In this document: positions 49,253 through 54,427 of the stretch, one piece after another
Layout: every line of letters starts with the position of its first letter
Numbering within the stretch: position 1 is the stretch's first letter
Assembly (NCBI RefSeq): GCF_019063845.1
Contig: NZ_CP077683.1
Coordinates: 4,874,501 to 4,938,500 of the forward strand
Source of the DNA: Geomonas subterranea
Lineage (GTDB): Bacteria; Desulfobacterota; Desulfuromonadia; Geobacterales; Geobacteraceae
Length of the DNA: 64,000 nucleotides
Direction of reading: 5' to 3'
Program-made: the position numbers and the translations under genes
The notes under the pieces: model-generated
What the model was told of the DNA's origin: nothing
Databases searched by the model: none
What the model saw: the letters and a program-made list of their open reading frames with translations, nothing else

Positions 49253-50530
49253 TTAGCATATCCGGTCACATTCAATGTTGCACTCTTTGTTGATAACGGT
49301 GTAGTGCCTAAACTGTAAATCCTTGTTTGCTACTTGGAAGATCACGGCTTCATGGACGATGTGATTTTGTACGTGGCACTGGTAGGTTCCATCGGAAATA
49401 GCGGTTGTTATGGAGTAATCACCGTTTTTAATCAGTGGCATCTTGAAGGAAAATTTCACGGTATGGATTTCGGCTGGCGACATTTTGGCGACTTCCTTTT
49501 CCAGGAAAATGCTGTTGACGCCGAAAATGAGGATGCCGAGGCTATTCTTGATGTCGATGGAGAGGATCGGCTGAAGCACCTGCTCCTTTATGTGCACCTC
49601 GATCATGAATACAACGGATTCGCCTCCCTCCAAAAGTTCCGCAGACTCCCCCGTGACCGCGTCGTAAAAAGCGACTCTGGTTATGACTGCCCTTTTGTCA
49701 CCTAACGATGCGAACATAGTGACATCCTGCCATTGCCAAGTCGTTCCCGCCGAAGTGGCCGTGACAGCCGGTTTGTGCGTCTTTGTCGGCACCATGTCGT
49801 AGGCCATGAAGTTCGCAAACCGTTTGCAAACTTCCTTAGAATCTCCCATTTCGATGATTTTCCCCTTCCCGATCCAGATGGCTTTGCGACAGAAGGTTTT
49901 TACCGACGGCATATCGTGCGAAACGAAAAGCACCGTCACGCCTTTGTTGATAAACTCATTTATCTTGCGCAGGCATTTCTGTTTGAATCTGCTGTCTCCG
50001 ACGCTGAGTGCCTCGTCGACGATGAGGATGTCTGGCTCGACATTTGAGGCAACCGCGAAAGCCAAGCGCACCATCATGCCGCTGGAATAGGTTTTCACCG
50101 GCTGATGAATGAAGTCGCCGATATCGGCGAACGACAGTATTTCATCGAGCTTGCGGTTCATCGCTTCCCGAGAGAAGCCGAGGATGGCTCCGTTGAAATA
50201 GACGTTTTCGAGGCCGCTAATGTCGGGGTTGAATCCAGCCCCCAGTTCCAGAAGCGCCGAGATTTTTCCGTTTACTTCCACCGAGCCCGTGGTGGGGGCG
50301 ATGACTCCGGTGATTGCCTTAAGGAGGGTGGACTTGCCGGCGCCGTTTGGCCCGACCAGCCCTATGGTCTCACCGCTCATGACATCCAAGTTGATCCCCT
50401 GCAGTGCGTAGAACTCGTGGTGATACTTTTTACCGAAGGGGTGTAGAGCCTCCTTCAACCGCTCGGCCGGGGAATCATAGAGTTTATAGACCTTGGAGAG
50501 GTCGCGTATTTTTATGATCGGGTTGTGCAA
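49253..50530 (-). CDS. wzt: O-antigen/polysaccharide ABC exporter ATPase with C-terminal domain
   Basis: The protein has 425 residues. The start is a TTG with AAGGA 7 bases upstream. The ABC domain shows GLVGPNGAGKSTLLKAI (Walker A), YSSGMMVRLAFAVA (signature), ILIVDEALSVGD (Walker B) and FVSHD (H-loop). From about 265 a beta-rich C-terminal domain follows (TRVAFYDAVTGESAELLEGG). This is the Wzt-C type that recognises the finished, terminally capped glycan in known O-antigen systems. With the permease encoded 34 bases upstream it exports lipid-linked polysaccharide. Composition is more AT-rich than the glycosyltransferases. Confidence 0.95.
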   Translation of the reverse strand: MHNPIIKIRDLSKVYKLYDSPAERLKEALHPFGKKYHHEFYALQGINLDVMSGETIGLVGPNGAGKSTLLKAITGVIAPTTGSVEVNGKISALLELGAGFNPDISGLENVYFNGAILGFSREAMNRKLDEILSFADIGDFIHQPVKTYSSGMMVRLAFAVASNVEPDILIVDEALSVGDSRFKQKCLRKINEFINKGVTVLFVSHDMPSVKTFCRKAIWIGKGKIIEMGDSKEVCKRFANFMAYDMVPTKTHKPAVTATSAGTTWQWQDVTMFASLGDKRAVITRVAFYDAVTGESAELLEGGESVVFMIEVHIKEQVLQPILSIDIKNSLGILIFGVNSIFLEKEVAKMSPAEIHTVKFSFKMPLIKNGDYSITTAISDGTYQCHVQNHIVHEAVIFQVANKDLQFRHYTVINKECNIECDRIC

Positions 50531-50564
50531 ATCGTGTCCTTCTTGCCTTTCAGTTGTGGCAATG

Positions 50565-51383
50565 TCAGATTACATCTGCAAAATGAGGCCTAAGTCTCCG
50601 GAACACAAGGGCCCCCAGTATGAAGGTCGCTATGGTGAAGGACCAGAAGAACAGGGCTGACGCCATGTTTTCCCAGAACCAGACTTTGTGAATGAAACTG
50701 TCCCGGTAGCCGTTCACCAGGTAGAAGATAGGGTTGAACTTGATCACGGCCTGATATTTCGGAGGCAAAATGGTCACGCTCCAGAAGATCGGAGTAAGGA
50801 AGAAGCCGAACTGCAGCAGGATGGCGATGATCTGCCGCAGATCCCGGAAGAAGATCACCACCGATGCTGTGAGCCAGGAAAGGCCGGTCACCAGGACCAG
50901 GGTGGCCAGGAGGTAGTAGAACACCTGCAGCCAATAGAGGTCCGGGTAGTAGCCGTAGCAGACGAAGAGGATGCCGACGAAGACGAGGAAAAAGGCATGG
51001 ATGGCAAGTGCGGATAGGATCTTAATGATGGGCAGTATACCGATGCTGAATGCTACTTTCTTCACTACGAAGGCATTTTGCGCTACCGAGTTCATGCCGT
51101 TGTTCACGGAATCACTGAAGAAGTTCCAGATGATCATCCCCACAATGTACCAGAGTATATAGGGGAAGTCCTGCACAGGCTTGGAACGAAATCCTATCTG
51201 GAAGACGAACCAGAAGATGAAGATGTTGGCGATAGGAAGGAGAAAAGCCCATATCATGCCCAGATATGAACCGAGGTAATTTGCTTTGAAGTCCCGCTGG
51301 GTTAGTTCATAAATAACATTTTTCTTCTCCGAAAGTTCTTTGATGAAGTCGGAGAACATTTTAATGTTTTGCATGCTGGCCAT
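50565..51383 (-). CDS. wzm: O-antigen/polysaccharide ABC exporter permease
   Basis: The protein has 272 residues, the usual length for Wzm, with six membrane segments. RDFKANYLGSYLGMIWAFLLP near residue 31 and the later TPIFWSVTILPPKYQAVIKFNP / YLVNGYRDSF block are characteristic of ABC-2 type polysaccharide permeases. It forms the channel for lipid-linked glycan across the inner membrane together with Wzt. No clear ribosome binding site precedes the first ATG (51383), and the ATG at 51374 is an alternative. It is the first gene of the exporter-sulfation operon. Confidence 0.95.
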   Translation of the reverse strand: MASMQNIKMFSDFIKELSEKKNVIYELTQRDFKANYLGSYLGMIWAFLLPIANIFIFWFVFQIGFRSKPVQDFPYILWYIVGMIIWNFFSDSVNNGMNSVAQNAFVVKKVAFSIGILPIIKILSALAIHAFFLVFVGILFVCYGYYPDLYWLQVFYYLLATLVLVTGLSWLTASVVIFFRDLRQIIAILLQFGFFLTPIFWSVTILPPKYQAVIKFNPIFYLVNGYRDSFIHKVWFWENMASALFFWSFTIATFILGALVFRRLRPHFADVI

Positions 51384-51423
51384 ATATTAAGAAGAAAGTG
51401 CGTAAAGGTGAGGTCTCAGCGAG

Positions 51424-51452
51424 ACAATACTCTAGTTCTTTTTAGAACACAA
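51424..51452 (-). promoter_or_regulatory. candidate promoter of the wzm operon with palindrome in the spacer
   Basis: On the - strand TTGTGT, 17 bases, then TATTGT lie so that initiation would fall near 51417, about 34 bases before the ATG. A perfect inverted repeat GTTCT-TTTT-AGAAC (51435-51448) sits mostly in the spacer, overlapping the -35 by two bases. That is a usual position for a repressor operator. The -35 matches consensus in only three positions. Confidence 0.4.
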
Positions 51453-51767
51453 GGCCATTTTTAAGGTAAAAGCCTTGGCTGGTGCAGAGTTAATGTAGTG
51501 TTTTGTCGAGGCTTTACCGTTGTTACGGTCGCGGTTTTTTCCTTAGCTATTCCACATGTCGAAGCATTTGTGGGCAGTCTGGCGGTGCGCTTGAGGAACC
51601 ATAGCGTTTCCCTTCCCGGACCTTCCTGCACTCTATTGTCGATCCGCTCAAAGAGGACGAGACAGAACAGAACGTGGTCGTGTTGATGGACACAGCAGCA
51701 CGATCGGGCGGAAAACCCAGCATTATGTATATGTTGTTGCTTGCAATCCAGTTTTATGGGAAGGGGC
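51453..51767. other. gene-free stretch upstream of the wzm operon
   Basis: No frame has a ribosome binding site and protein-like composition. I looked for the ops/JUMPstart element (GGCGGTAG) used by RfaH in polysaccharide operons and found only a weak GGCGGTGC near 51579, which I do not accept. Confidence 0.5.
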
Positions 51768-51811
51768 GCGAAAAACGGGCTCAGCGTTTTGACGCTGAGC
51801 CCGTTTTTCGC
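51768..51811 (-). terminator. long bidirectional hairpin terminator
   Basis: A perfect 20-bp stem (GCGAAAAACGGGCTCAGCGT and its complement) has a TTTG loop. A5 and T5 tracts lie inside the stem ends. It lies 31 bases beyond the stop of the Fn3-like gene and separates it from the wzm operon. Confidence 0.85.
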
Positions 51812-51841
51812 TGTCGAACATGCTCGGTTACCTTGCCAGAA

Positions 51842-52492
51842 TCATGTGATGATGAGTGTGACGTAGTTGGACCAGGGGCTGACACCAGTGGTGGCGACGG
51901 CCCTGACTCTCAGGGAACAGTTCTTTCCTGCTTCCAGGTTCCTCGAGACCATCTTGCTGGCAGTCGGGTGCACTGCCAGGTGTCCCCAGTTCGCCTCTAC
52001 GGTCGGATCACCGTAGGTGTACTGCATTTCATAGCTTCTGGCTTTCGCTACTCCGGTCACCTTCCCTAACACGGCTCCGCGTTCGTTCAGGTTGGACACG
52101 GTAAGAGTAGGGATGTTCTTGCCCACAGCTACAGTGCGGATCGGGCTGGCTTTCTTGTGCCAGAAGTACTCGCACCCGGCCCGGTAGGGTAGGGTGGGAT
52201 CCTTCCGCGCGGCCAGTTCCACGAAATCCATGATGTCGATAAAGACCTGGTTAAATGGGGGGCGAAGGGAGTTCCGTTCGGCAACCATGGTATGATTGCC
52301 GGTTTCTGCTCCCCGGTGCACTTCCTTGAAATGTTCGTACATGTTCCTGAGCGGATCGCCGACAACGAGGAACGACGGGGTTGGCCCTTGTATCGGGTTT
52401 CCCGTGGTGAAGGCATCGACGATCGGTTCGGCTCTGACGATCACCTCTGAGTGGCTCATGCGTGTTATCATCGTGGTGGTATTTGCGCCCAC
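51842..52492 (-). CDS. protein with C-terminal fibronectin-III-like domain, function unknown
   Basis: The protein has 216 residues. The start is a GTG with GGGAGGTG about 8 bases upstream. There is no signal peptide. The N-terminal 125 residues (ERNSLRPPFNQVFIDIMDF, CEYFWHKKASPIRTVAVGKN) are not a family I recognise. They may be helical and are followed by an Fn3-like sandwich (about 135-216). This contains VTGVAKARSYEMQYTYGDP and the Fn3-typical ending SLRVRAVATTGVSPWSNYVT. The gene stands alone between a strong terminator and a 628-base upstream region carrying the phased palindrome arrays. That suggests unusual regulation. A surface or adhesion role is only a guess. Confidence 0.75.
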   Translation of the reverse strand: MGANTTTMITRMSHSEVIVRAEPIVDAFTTGNPIQGPTPSFLVVGDPLRNMYEHFKEVHRGAETGNHTMVAERNSLRPPFNQVFIDIMDFVELAARKDPTLPYRAGCEYFWHKKASPIRTVAVGKNIPTLTVSNLNERGAVLGKVTGVAKARSYEMQYTYGDPTVEANWGHLAVHPTASKMVSRNLEAGKNCSLRVRAVATTGVSPWSNYVTLIIT

Positions 52493-52531
52493 AGGCTTTC
52501 ACCTCCCTCGGCCCAGCCAGGTTTTTTCTTA

Positions 52532-52559
52532 AGCGTATAAGAGATTTCTAATTTGTCAA
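52532..52559 (-). promoter_or_regulatory. candidate promoter of the Fn3-like gene
   Basis: On the - strand a perfect TTGACA (52554-52559) is followed after 16 bases by TACGCT, or after 14 by TATACG. The -10 is weak, as expected for an activator-dependent promoter. The inverted repeat CGCCAA-N14-TTGGCG lies directly upstream (52561-52586). Confidence 0.4.
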
Positions 52560-52672
52560 TCGCCAATGTGCCATCGGTGTTTGGCGCATGCTGCGTCCGA
52601 CCGAGGTGAGGGGGGGCTTCCCGAGTCGCGCAGAAAACGGTTGCGTTGACCTCGCGGCGGTTGTACAGGCCC

Positions 52673-52729
52673 ATGTAACGATTACATTAGGCGATGTAAC
52701 GCTTACATGAGGCAATGTAACCCTTACAT
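52673..52729. repeat. palindrome array A: three ATGTAA-NNN-TTACAT copies, 21-bp period
   Basis: The copies at 52673-52687, 52694-52708 and 52715-52729 read ATGTAACGATTACAT, ATGTAACGCTTACAT and ATGTAACCCTTACAT. Starts are exactly 21 bp apart, two helical turns, so all centres face the same side of the DNA. Each 12-bp arm set is perfect and the 6-bp spacers differ. This fits a cooperative dimeric DNA-binding protein. The array is about 115-170 bp upstream of the Fn3-like gene's -35 element. Confidence 0.9.
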
Positions 52730-52903
52730 GCAACTCGGATCGGCAATTTTTGACGGTTTTTGCCGTGCCATGGGGGGATGCGATGGTTGCAGAGCGCAAT
52801 GTAGCCTCTGCCTCGGGGTAGGCACGCCTGTCGCGCGAGGATTTCGCTTTAACTTTGGCATTTGCAGGCTGTGATTCGGGCGATGTGTGGAAGACCGGAT
52901 GAG

Positions 52904-52960
52904 CTGTAACCGTTACAACGTGCCATGTAACCGTTACATCGGGCCATGTAACCGTTACAT
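52904..52960. repeat. palindrome array B: three further copies, 21-bp period
   Basis: The copies at 52904-52918 (CTGTAACCGTTACAA), 52925-52939 and 52946-52960 (both ATGTAACCGTTACAT) again start exactly 21 bp apart. Here the three middle bases are CCG in every copy, so most of the sequence TGTAACCGTTACA is perfectly conserved. The first copy of this triplet starts 189 bp (9 x 21) after the last copy of array A, in helical phase with it. Confidence 0.9.
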
Positions 52961-53120
52961 TAAACGTCTAGGAACTGCAAAGAGCGTGAAGCTGCCGCTA
53001 AGGGGGCAGATTTCTCCTCAAAGGAGCCACCATTGTCGTGGCGCCGATCGACGGCGAGACGCGCCTGTCTTGCGGCGGGCAAGCGAGATGATTTTCCAAA
53101 GACGATGGTGGTGCTCGGTT

Positions 53121-54140
53121 TCAGGAGGGCGGCACATCGAGCAGTTCGTGGAAGGTCAGGTGGTGGCGCCTTAGTAGTTGCATTGTTTCACGGGGGGACA
53201 GGTTCTTGTGCCGCATCACCTCGGCGCGTTTCCTGGTTAGGGTGGGGAGGGCGAGCAGGGCGTCGCGCATTCCGCGCAACAGGGCGAGTGCGCACTCGTT
53301 CCTGCTGCCGCTGGTCTTGAACTCGCCTCCGGTTCCTTTGCCGTGCAGCACCACCCTGGCCTGTACCAGGTAGCGCAGCAGGGTGTACAGGGGGAGCGTA
53401 AGGAGCAGCACCAGCGGGAAGTTTTTCACAACTGCGTAGAAATGGTTGCGCTCGACGAGGTAGAGCTTCAAGGGGGACAGGGTCCCCGCGGTCATGGAGT
53501 ACTTGTGGTACACGACGGCGTCACGGGCCAAAACGGCCTGCCACCCGGCGAGCCGCCCCCTAAGACCCAGGTCGCTGTCCTCGCAGTAGGCGAAGAAGTC
53601 GCCGTCGAAGAAGCCGATCTGGTCGACCATGGCGCGCCGGTACAGCGCGACGCAGGCCGAGGGGAACAGGATCTCGGCTTCGTCCTCGACGGCAAGCTCT
53701 GCATAGCGCCTCCCCCGGAAGTTGCCGCGGGACATGCCGTCCCTGCAGATCGCCATCCCCATCGAATCAACCCGCTCCGGATCCTGATAGCTGAGGATCC
53801 GGCATCCCACCATCCCCGCCTCCGGGTGCCGGTCGGCTACCGCCACCAGCTTTTCCAACCAGTCGGGCTCGGCCTTGGTGTCGTTGTTCAGGGTGACCAG
53901 GTACTCGCCCCGGGCGAAGGGAAGGGCGGCGTTGTTGCCGGCGGCGAAGCCTGCATTCTTCTCTAACGGGACCAGCCGCACCTCCGGGCGCTGCTCGAGG
54001 TAGGGGACGGATCCGTCGCTGGATCCGTTGTCCACCACGATGACCTGGAAATCCCTGAAGGTCTGCTTTTGCAGGCTGTCCAGGCATTCCGGCAAATGGC
54101 CGAGGCCGTTCCAGTTGACGATGATTACGGATACGCGCAC
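53121..54140 (-). CDS. GT2 family glycosyltransferase (rhamnosyltransferase/WbbL-like)
   Basis: The protein has 339 residues. I use the GTG at 54140 (GGAG 6 bases upstream), which gives the typical N-terminus VRVSVIIVNWNGLGHLPECL. The upstream ATGs have no ribosome site and add atypical sequence. The GT-A domain shows VVDNGSSDGS, TLNNDTKAEPDWLE (DxD) and GFFDGDFFAYCEDSDLGLRG, the WbbL-type acceptor region. A C-terminal helical/hydrophobic part (LVLLLTLPLYTLLRYLVQA) may attach it to the membrane. A single-residue transferase for surface glycan assembly is likely. It is divergent from the DPM1-like gene. Confidence 0.9.
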   Translation of the reverse strand: MRVSVIIVNWNGLGHLPECLDSLQKQTFRDFQVIVVDNGSSDGSVPYLEQRPEVRLVPLEKNAGFAAGNNAALPFARGEYLVTLNNDTKAEPDWLEKLVAVADRHPEAGMVGCRILSYQDPERVDSMGMAICRDGMSRGNFRGRRYAELAVEDEAEILFPSACVALYRRAMVDQIGFFDGDFFAYCEDSDLGLRGRLAGWQAVLARDAVVYHKYSMTAGTLSPLKLYLVERNHFYAVVKNFPLVLLLTLPLYTLLRYLVQARVVLHGKGTGGEFKTSGSRNECALALLRGMRDALLALPTLTRKRAEVMRHKNLSPRETMQLLRRHHLTFHELLDVPPS

Positions 54141-54427
54141 GCCTGCTCCGGTTACTGACATTGAAAAAGTTGAATCATGGTTGTGGCGCGGTTCCCGCTC
54201 TCTGTGCTGCAGCCCGGCACCGGCCGGTAAAGCGTCTGCCCGCACGGCGCCCTCTCTATGACTTTTTTAATTGCGCGCCGCCAGATATTTATATTAGTAT
54301 CGGGCTCCTTGGCAAGTCTTATCTCCTGTCCTAATGCCTGAAAGTTGGTCCGGATCTTGTATTCATTCAGAAAAGGTCCGTTTCCGGCTTTTCATTACGC
54401 CATATGGCGTTGGCATAGGTGGGTGAT

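Follow-up and report, generated by a model that had tools for sequence, protein, structure and literature searches.

Why should six near-identical palindromes stand at exact 21-bp steps in the gap between an Fn3-like gene and a family 2 glycosyltransferase gene, and what might read them? We addressed this question within a 64,000-nucleotide stretch of the Geomonas subterranea chromosome (hereafter ‘the window’, C1:4874501–4938500; its single-contig genome is G000 in our set). The features of the locus, in window coordinates, are as follows.

49253–51383, minus strand: a gene pair lying downstream of the Fn3-like gene and taken by eye to encode the ATPase and permease of a polysaccharide-export ABC transporter
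51842–52492, minus strand: Fn3-like protein of 216 amino acids, with a helical domain predicted at the N terminus and an Fn3 domain at the C terminus
52673–52729, no strand: near cluster, three exact 15-bp palindromes in 21-bp steps (motif search and register scoring)
52730–52903, no strand: array core, decayed 21-bp units in register with both clusters
52904–52960, no strand: far cluster, one two-mismatch palindrome and two exact ones in 21-bp steps
53121–54245, minus strand: family 2 glycosyltransferase, the upstream neighbour, syntenic in two relatives

Architecture of the window array

The six palindromes start at positions 52673, 52694, 52715, 52904, 52925 and 52946, in 21-bp steps, just as the original prediction had placed them. 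Five of the six match ATGTAANNNTTACAT exactly, while the copy at 52904 (CTGTAACCGTTACAA) carries two mismatches. A palindrome search of the window allowing up to three mismatches returned 10 matches (4.5 were expected in shuffled sequence), and the four that fall outside the array all carry three mismatches. The two clusters are also the highest-scoring tandem repeats in the window, with scores of 98 and 88; the next scores 52.

The palindromes had been described as two triplets offset by 189 bp. The clusters and their offset stand, but the triplets are the ends of a single array: across the 174-bp core, the eight in-register positions match the palindrome at a mean of 6.5 of 14 bases, versus at most 4.3 in any of the other 20 phases, and the in-register sum was reached by none of 5000 shuffles (a test applied to the window core alone among the six elements described below). 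Register scoring likewise supports the helical register claimed for all six palindromes, and ranks the core units at 52757, 52778, 52799 and 52841 as closest to the palindrome and that at 52736 as the weakest. The feature is therefore a single array of 14 registers, intact at both ends and decayed in between, and the cluster offset equals 9 × 21 bp because both clusters are ends of that single array. The spacers, previously thought to be free to vary around conserved palindromes, are themselves constrained, in that many of the 6-bp spacers are G+C-rich and of GRGGC type when read in the orientation of the element.

A simple scan of positions 52300–53200 passed no sigma-70-like promoter. A structured RNA was considered and rejected, the sole Rfam match in 51300–54400 reaching 25 bits where the gathering score is 68.

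The TGTAAC class in the genome and among relatives

Across the 4.99-Mb genome the core TGTAACNNTTACA gives 19 strand-matches and its reversed control none. These sites lie in the window array, in a second, similarly built array (C1:4520710–4521017; five copies and then two, in 21-bp steps) and at two isolated positions, and nowhere else in the genome. When the 15-mer ATGTAACNGTTACAT is searched with up to two mismatches, four further sites appear, scattered and each with two mismatches, versus one for the reversed control.

Among 48 genomes of the family, a spaced palindrome pair with up to two mismatches occurs in five, of which G000, G013, G021 and G024 hold true arrays and G015 just one two-mismatch pair that does not form an array. 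The arrays occupy two loci. At locus A (Fn3-like gene, array, glycosyltransferase) the arrangement is syntenic in G000, G021 and G024, and a close copy of the window's Fn3-like protein is found in exactly these three genomes. At locus B (glycosyltransferase, array, MarR_EPS-like gene) a TGTAAC array is present in G000, G013 and G021, so that G000 and G021 carry arrays at both loci, in the same orientation, while G013 has a TGTAAC array and no close ortholog of the window's Fn3-like protein. All six elements face the same way with respect to the genes downstream of them. Two outcomes had been named beforehand as counting against the observation, namely a palindrome scattered at random spacing and an array missing from every relative that conserves the Fn3-like locus; the palindrome instead groups into two arrays and two isolated TGTAACNNTTACA sites, and array and gene have been kept together in both other genomes that encode a closely similar protein (87–92% identical), so that both outcomes favour the observation.

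The six TGTAAC elements (two loci, four genomes) share a common build, either end carrying two to five well-matched units. Interior in-register matches of at least 8 of 14 are found in five of them, with one-base shifts in three; the G024 element has no interior in-register match. The inner end units are separated, start to start, by 167–189 bp (units that match at 9 and 11 of 14 bases are counted). Because the six elements occupy just two syntenic places, we rejected the idea of a mobile element that keeps its ends.

The Fn3-like protein family

The window's Fn3-like protein has a pI of 9.3 (family median 9.2) and, judged by hydropathy alone, no evident signal peptide; a hydrophobic N-terminus was seen in two of 35 family members. 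The N-terminal helical domain of the family has a net charge of about +1 and is a structure prediction (pLDDT 91 for the domain of the L190 member). No solved structure in the PDB matched the predicted fold below E 1 (best E 1.8), and the sequence profile of the domain gave weak matches to helical proteins (best E 0.002). Pfam searches of the 35 members recovered mainly Fn3, in 20 of them, and detected no ParA, ParB, ParR or Rep domain in those members or in 14 of the neighbouring ORFs.

The gene had been regarded as an orphan. The window genome in fact encodes at least nine family members, eight among the matches listed (the window's own included) and one from a control tile. In the one genome compared, the neighbours of the Fn3-like genes vary from locus to locus. 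An origin in plasmids or phages was rejected, because tblastn searches with one Geomonas member (against plasmids) and one Bacteroidota member (against plasmids and phages) returned no match; viral contigs contained no relative of the same two queries. Assignment to a defence-system family was likewise rejected, one of 15 members having matched, at E 0.01. Two neighbouring genes were noted in passing: at L206:9511–10509 a Y1 transposase, which also weakly resembles the DnaA C-terminal domain, comes immediately after an Fn3 gene and its 41-bp array, and a fragment of a phage integrase N-terminal (SAM-like) domain directly follows the 21-bp array of an Fn3 paralog (L193:5223–5783).

Arrays accompany Fn3-like genes in the Geobacteraceae

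Within 1.4 kb to either side, 27 of 36 Fn3-like loci carry an array of the 20/21-bp class, versus six of 91 control tiles of the same size, all drawn from the window genome (p = 2e-14, orthologous loci not being independent). One of the six positive tiles (L206) itself holds a family gene, and counting 5/91 gives p = 4e-15; with one locus per genome the count is 13 of 21 (p = 1e-7). The 36 loci comprise 30 matches listed and six other listed copies from the window genome, the window itself included, and are part of a family whose matches number well over 100; L160, L163, L164 and L206, which were found via their arrays, stand outside them. Nine of the 36 fall below threshold, as do seven of the 16 loci from other phyla described below, and some of these have weak arrays (0.53–0.58). 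L101, whose array was seen by eye (0.57), was counted as negative, and L109 had 208 nt of 3′ flank.

In the window genome, seven of the eight listed family genes have a nearby 20/21-bp array, each with its own unit, and the eighth has a 102-bp (5 × 20.4) array 3′ of the gene; the ninth copy was the one found through a control tile that contained an array. Across the family most arrays lie 3′ of the gene, starting 48–362 bp past the stop codon, and eight loci, among them the window and the weak ortholog L101, have the array 5′; it does not always precede the gene.

We compared repeat lags of 12–65 bp in the flanks of 40 loci. At an identity of at least 0.62, all top lags belong to the 20–21-bp family, save a 54-bp repeat at L118. 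Full symmetry of the palindrome, which had been taken as the conserved feature, is special to the TGTAAC class, and what recurs more broadly is tandem repetition every 20–21 bp or so. The linkage was also examined in reverse, starting from a second unit sequence: a pattern search located eight ATTCGWCGAAT arrays, spread over six genomes. Four of these adjoin an Fn3-like gene (G000, G011, G021 and G023), three are at the MarR_EPS-like locus (G016, G020 and G023) and the last lies where a G016 contig ends, with no family gene in the adjoining 1.8 kb.

Homologues in other phyla

Family profiles found relatives in at least eight of 395 genomes from the phylum of Bacteroides nordii (at least six full-length loci) and in at least six of 387 from the phylum of a Victivallales genome (at least 10 full-length loci, with at least seven in one genome). 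Because the profile searches scored no more than seven candidates in any genome, these counts are lower bounds; the phylum names Bacteroidota and Verrucomicrobiota rest on the two genomes at the search centres. Among the at most seven candidates scored in each of 394 other genomes of the window's own phylum no relative was recognized, an absence that is soft.

At the same threshold, nine of 16 of these loci have an array, versus two of 140 control tiles from six genomes (p = 5e-9); the 16 exclude L232, whose frame is broken, and also L224–L226 and L233, which match partially or are fragments of longer ORFs. Arrays 5′ of the gene have 10 units of 21 bp at L219, 13 units of 21 bp at L231, and periods of 42/21 bp at L229 and 84/42 bp at L221. 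Genome G1085, with at least seven family members, shows 10–11-bp repeats, about one helical turn, 3′ of three family genes (L238, L239 and L236), the first of which is the only one among the nine positives. The gene for a small two-domain protein, often beside a two-turn array, is thus seen in three bacterial phyla.

Unit sequence, period and co-inheritance

The unit sequence is mostly private to its locus and the two-turn period is largely constant, with multiples of 40–42, 63, 84 and 102 bp also seen. We compared arrays and proteins across 33 loci, with array bounds set by hand. Seventeen of 18 protein pairs that are at least 66% identical share their array sequence, the exception being L191 and L112, whose proteins are 75% identical and whose arrays are unrelated; at 57–65% identity array similarity is mixed, and among the 489 pairs below 40% it averages the chance level (11.2, at most 13.6). 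Array class therefore tends to follow the protein, with exceptions, a pattern that fits co-inheritance and is short of proof of recognition. A coding reading of the repeat (21 bp as seven codons) was dropped because 20-, 41- and 44-bp arrays occur.

Unlike arrays at locus B

The stretch upstream of the MarR_EPS-like gene was compared in 20 genomes (for G027 and G038, in which no glycosyltransferase was detected, 1.2 kb was taken). A strong repeat of 20, 21, 40 or 41 bp is present in 12 of them (0.66–0.98 identity over 80 nt), and its sequence varies: it is of TGTAAC type in three genomes, of ATTCG type in G016, G020 and G023 (by pattern search) and in G012 (by eye), and of other kinds in G017, G018, G024, G027 and G006, the last with about 26 units of no marked palindromic character. 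The other eight (G011, G014, G015, G019, G022, G025, G026 and G038) have no array at this locus. In ten more distant genomes, G032 shows strong lags of 28, 42 and 21 bp and G047 a 17-bp repeat, the others remaining below 0.6. No Fn3-like gene is present in the 19–20 kb around the locus B arrays of L009, L072 and L074.

In G000 and G013 a GxxExxY gene lies between the array and the MarR_EPS-like gene. A GxxExxY (PDDEXK_3) gene lies between the glycosyltransferase and MarR_EPS-like genes at L009:9680–10550 and at locus B of G022 and G026; by eye it is flanked by inverted GGAGAAAATCTGAG-like repeats and looks inserted.

A proposed helically phased platform and its alternatives

What recurs from locus to locus is the gene and the two-turn period, and the combination of a nearly fixed phase with a free sequence suggests that numerous copies of a protein line up along the same helical face. 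We tentatively favour a reading in which the arrays are helically phased platforms where many copies of one protein, perhaps the cognate Fn3-like protein, assemble. The module would be a stand-alone unit of two parts, a gene whose small and mostly basic product has a predicted helical and an Fn3 domain, and a neighbouring tandem array whose unit spans about two helical turns (20–21 bp or multiples). Every unit would show the same face of the helix, so that many copies of one protein could assemble cooperatively; a full array might then carry a protein filament, and an array reduced to its ends, as in the window, might support a loop of about 190 bp. The cooperative binding or looping first proposed for the window is kept as the natural reading of this geometry. 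The most economical candidate for the binding protein would be the cognate Fn3 protein. Two TGTAAC arrays lie upstream of polysaccharide genes, and control of those genes is therefore the likeliest local effect, so that in the window genome the probable output would be control of two sets of such genes. The linkage, the period, a partial co-inheritance and the preserved ends are observed, whereas the binding, the identity of the bound protein and an effect on transcription are inferred. Several findings weigh against the reading: the unmatched fold and low net charge of the N-terminal domain, the G013 array that lacks a close ortholog of the window's protein, the unrelated arrays of L191 and L112 and the mixed pairs at 57–65% identity, the loci below threshold, the placement of arrays 5′ of some genes and 3′ of others, and the locus B arrays with no Fn3-like gene nearby.

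If this reading is right, the Fn3-like protein reads periodicity and repetition, instead of or besides a fixed sequence, and the module is a portable assembly site on DNA; the gene–array pair may then exhibit a principle of DNA recognition based on phase and repetition. The protein family gains a concrete candidate partner in the DNA adjoining its gene, and the dozens of diverse arrays with matching proteins form a natural set for the study of protein–DNA co-evolution. It is possible, and we would put it no higher, that this is a new gene-plus-array system of at least three phyla in which the unit sequence turns over while the helical period is nearly fixed. Such a combination of near-fixed period and free sequence fits poorly with models based on CRISPR, REP elements, iterons, ordinary operators or neutral satellites, and a search of the literature outside preprints and most subscription journals found no published description of the module.

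The arrays might instead be operators at which ordinary dimeric regulators bind, with the genes for these regulators lying elsewhere and the Fn3-like genes being regulated targets or passengers, an explanation that we consider somewhat unlikely. The TGTAAC class is fully palindromic, as a dimer operator would be: the window unit has full 7/7 dyad symmetry (attained by 0.2% of shuffles) and is exceptional among the arrays in this respect. At least five of seven dyad matches are found in 16 of 24 units, versus 37% in shuffles (p = 0.003), and in 13 of 21 once three orthologs are dropped (p = 0.02), a modest excess of partial palindromes that favours this alternative and leaves room for dimer operators. 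The locus B arrays, present in 12/20 genomes without an Fn3-like gene where checked, also suit regulators of this kind. Most arrays, however, lie 3′ of the Fn3-like gene, outside its promoter region; units differ between paralogs, so that many regulators would be needed; and the gene–array linkage persists across three phyla.

Among the closest known systems are operator arrays bound cooperatively by dimeric or octameric regulators, for example those of the Lrp/AsnC family. The window's 15-bp palindromes resemble these in their two-turn spacing and in the cooperative wrapping or looping that it would allow, and palindromes spaced by whole turns are a property of the window array that other arrays share as a partial tendency. 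Unlike Lrp/AsnC operator arrays, the present ones run to about 23 units next to a gene, have a unit mostly private to the locus and are linked to an Fn3 family.

A second alternative, which appears distinctly unlikely, is that the arrays are minisatellites produced by replication slippage or a selfish process and favoured in certain intergenic gaps, with the period of ∼21 bp arising from the mechanism and the Fn3-like gene marking permissive or mobile sites. Array sequence does vary by locus and species, even at one orthologous position; a Y1 transposase-like gene stands beside one array and an integrase fragment beside another; and TRF finds other repeats near family genes (175 bp at L121; 8–15 bp at L115 and L227). 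Multicopy intergenic sequences, direct repeats of 6–42 nt included, are moreover described in the accessible parts of two reports on Geobacter bemidjiensis and G. metallireducens (PMC2996986, PMC2700814), one of which mentions a GEMM-regulated Fn3 protein. As described in those parts, they are likewise short direct or palindromic intergenic repeats of the same bacterial family; they form families copied through the genome, whereas the Geomonas arrays have a locus-specific unit, a two-turn period and a linked protein family, and the same parts draw no link between the repeats and the Fn3-like family.

Several observations oppose a minisatellite origin. Arrays are rarer in control gaps: among 37 gaps of at least 300 nt in 260 kb of the window genome (heuristic gene calls), three pass the threshold, namely L206 (period 41, beside the ninth Fn3-like gene), L200 (42/43 bp) and L209 (8 bp). 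The period is also narrow; an ordinary minisatellite (VNTR) has an unconstrained period and no gene linkage, and the arrays differ from it in their 20–21-bp period family and in a linkage of p = 2e-14. In addition, the TGTAAC elements keep their end units while the interior decays, the opposite of what is expected of a neutral satellite.

That the MarR_EPS-like regulator is itself the binding protein seems very improbable. Its gene adjoins the second TGTAAC array, and the protein resembles TIGR04176, a model named for polysaccharide loci (73 bits, below the cut-off of 88). It is, however, 86–98% identical in 14 other Geomonas genomes, two of which (G013 and G021) have a TGTAAC array at the locus and 12 of which do not, and it is present in 47 of the 48 family genomes, with TGTAAC arrays in four. 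Being nearly constant among Geomonas, it is therefore a poor candidate reader of the varying locus B arrays. Action through intrinsic DNA curvature, any bend of which would be summed by a two-turn period, is hardly credible, since the predicted curvature of 24 units is not above that found after permutation (mean z 0.02).

The assembly-platform reading can also be set beside other systems that pair repeats with a protein. In REP-RAYT systems, palindromic repeats lie beside a gene of matching specificity, and the present repeats similarly adjoin a gene; the Fn3-like protein is not a Y1 transposase, however, and the repeats are tandem and local rather than dispersed. No Y1 transposase is encoded by the two genes flanking the window array, the ten neighbouring ORFs scanned gave one Y1_Tnp match (at L206), and the TGTAAC core is limited to two arrays and two single sites. 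Plasmid R1 parC consists of two iteron clusters around a promoter. Like such centromeres and iterons, the window array has two direct-repeat clusters in helical phase, those of parC being bound by one small protein; unlike them, the arrays are chromosomal and several per genome, with no ParA/ParM or Rep among the neighbours scanned. CRISPR arrays have repeats of about 25–40 bp and unique spacers of similar length, and are set apart by repeat layout alone from 21-bp units with 6-bp semi-conserved spacers.

Phased repeats elsewhere

A wider search for TGTAAC palindrome pairs at 21-bp spacing returned 39 genome stretches and six viral stretches. A family member is present in the two Geomonas stretches only, and elsewhere one 827-amino acid protein matched (E 1.5e-5); when 18 spaced-pair genomes were searched whole, two gave Fn3 domains, only inside ORFs longer than 1,200 amino acids. 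A wide TGTAAC regulon in other phyla was therefore rejected, as the spaced pairs there occur without an Fn3-like family gene in the DNA searched, and these occurrences are probably separate cases.

Several further repeats were noted in passing. In the window genome, the L200 array (L200:3596–4367; G000:C1 1203595–1204366) is built of 42/43-bp units that contain an inverted motif, CGGCATACC...GGTATGCCG, and has no Fn3-like gene in the surrounding 20 kb. Short arrays of four or five GTAA...TTAC palindromes at 21-bp spacing occur in a Treponema MAG (L060), a Lachnospiraceae MAG (L043) and a viral contig (L070), with no Fn3-like gene in the DNA read around them. The Bacteroidales MAG SUG481 has nine stretches (L041, L046–L048, L053, L056, L057, L059 and L065) with two or three CTGTAAGCGTTACAG-like palindromes each, in exact 21-bp steps, which form a separate family with the same phasing. 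Finally, a viral contig (L068:13429–13880) carries ten GTAACNGTTAC palindromes at spacings of 13, 21/22 and 107 bp, in a pattern that repeats after 270 bp.
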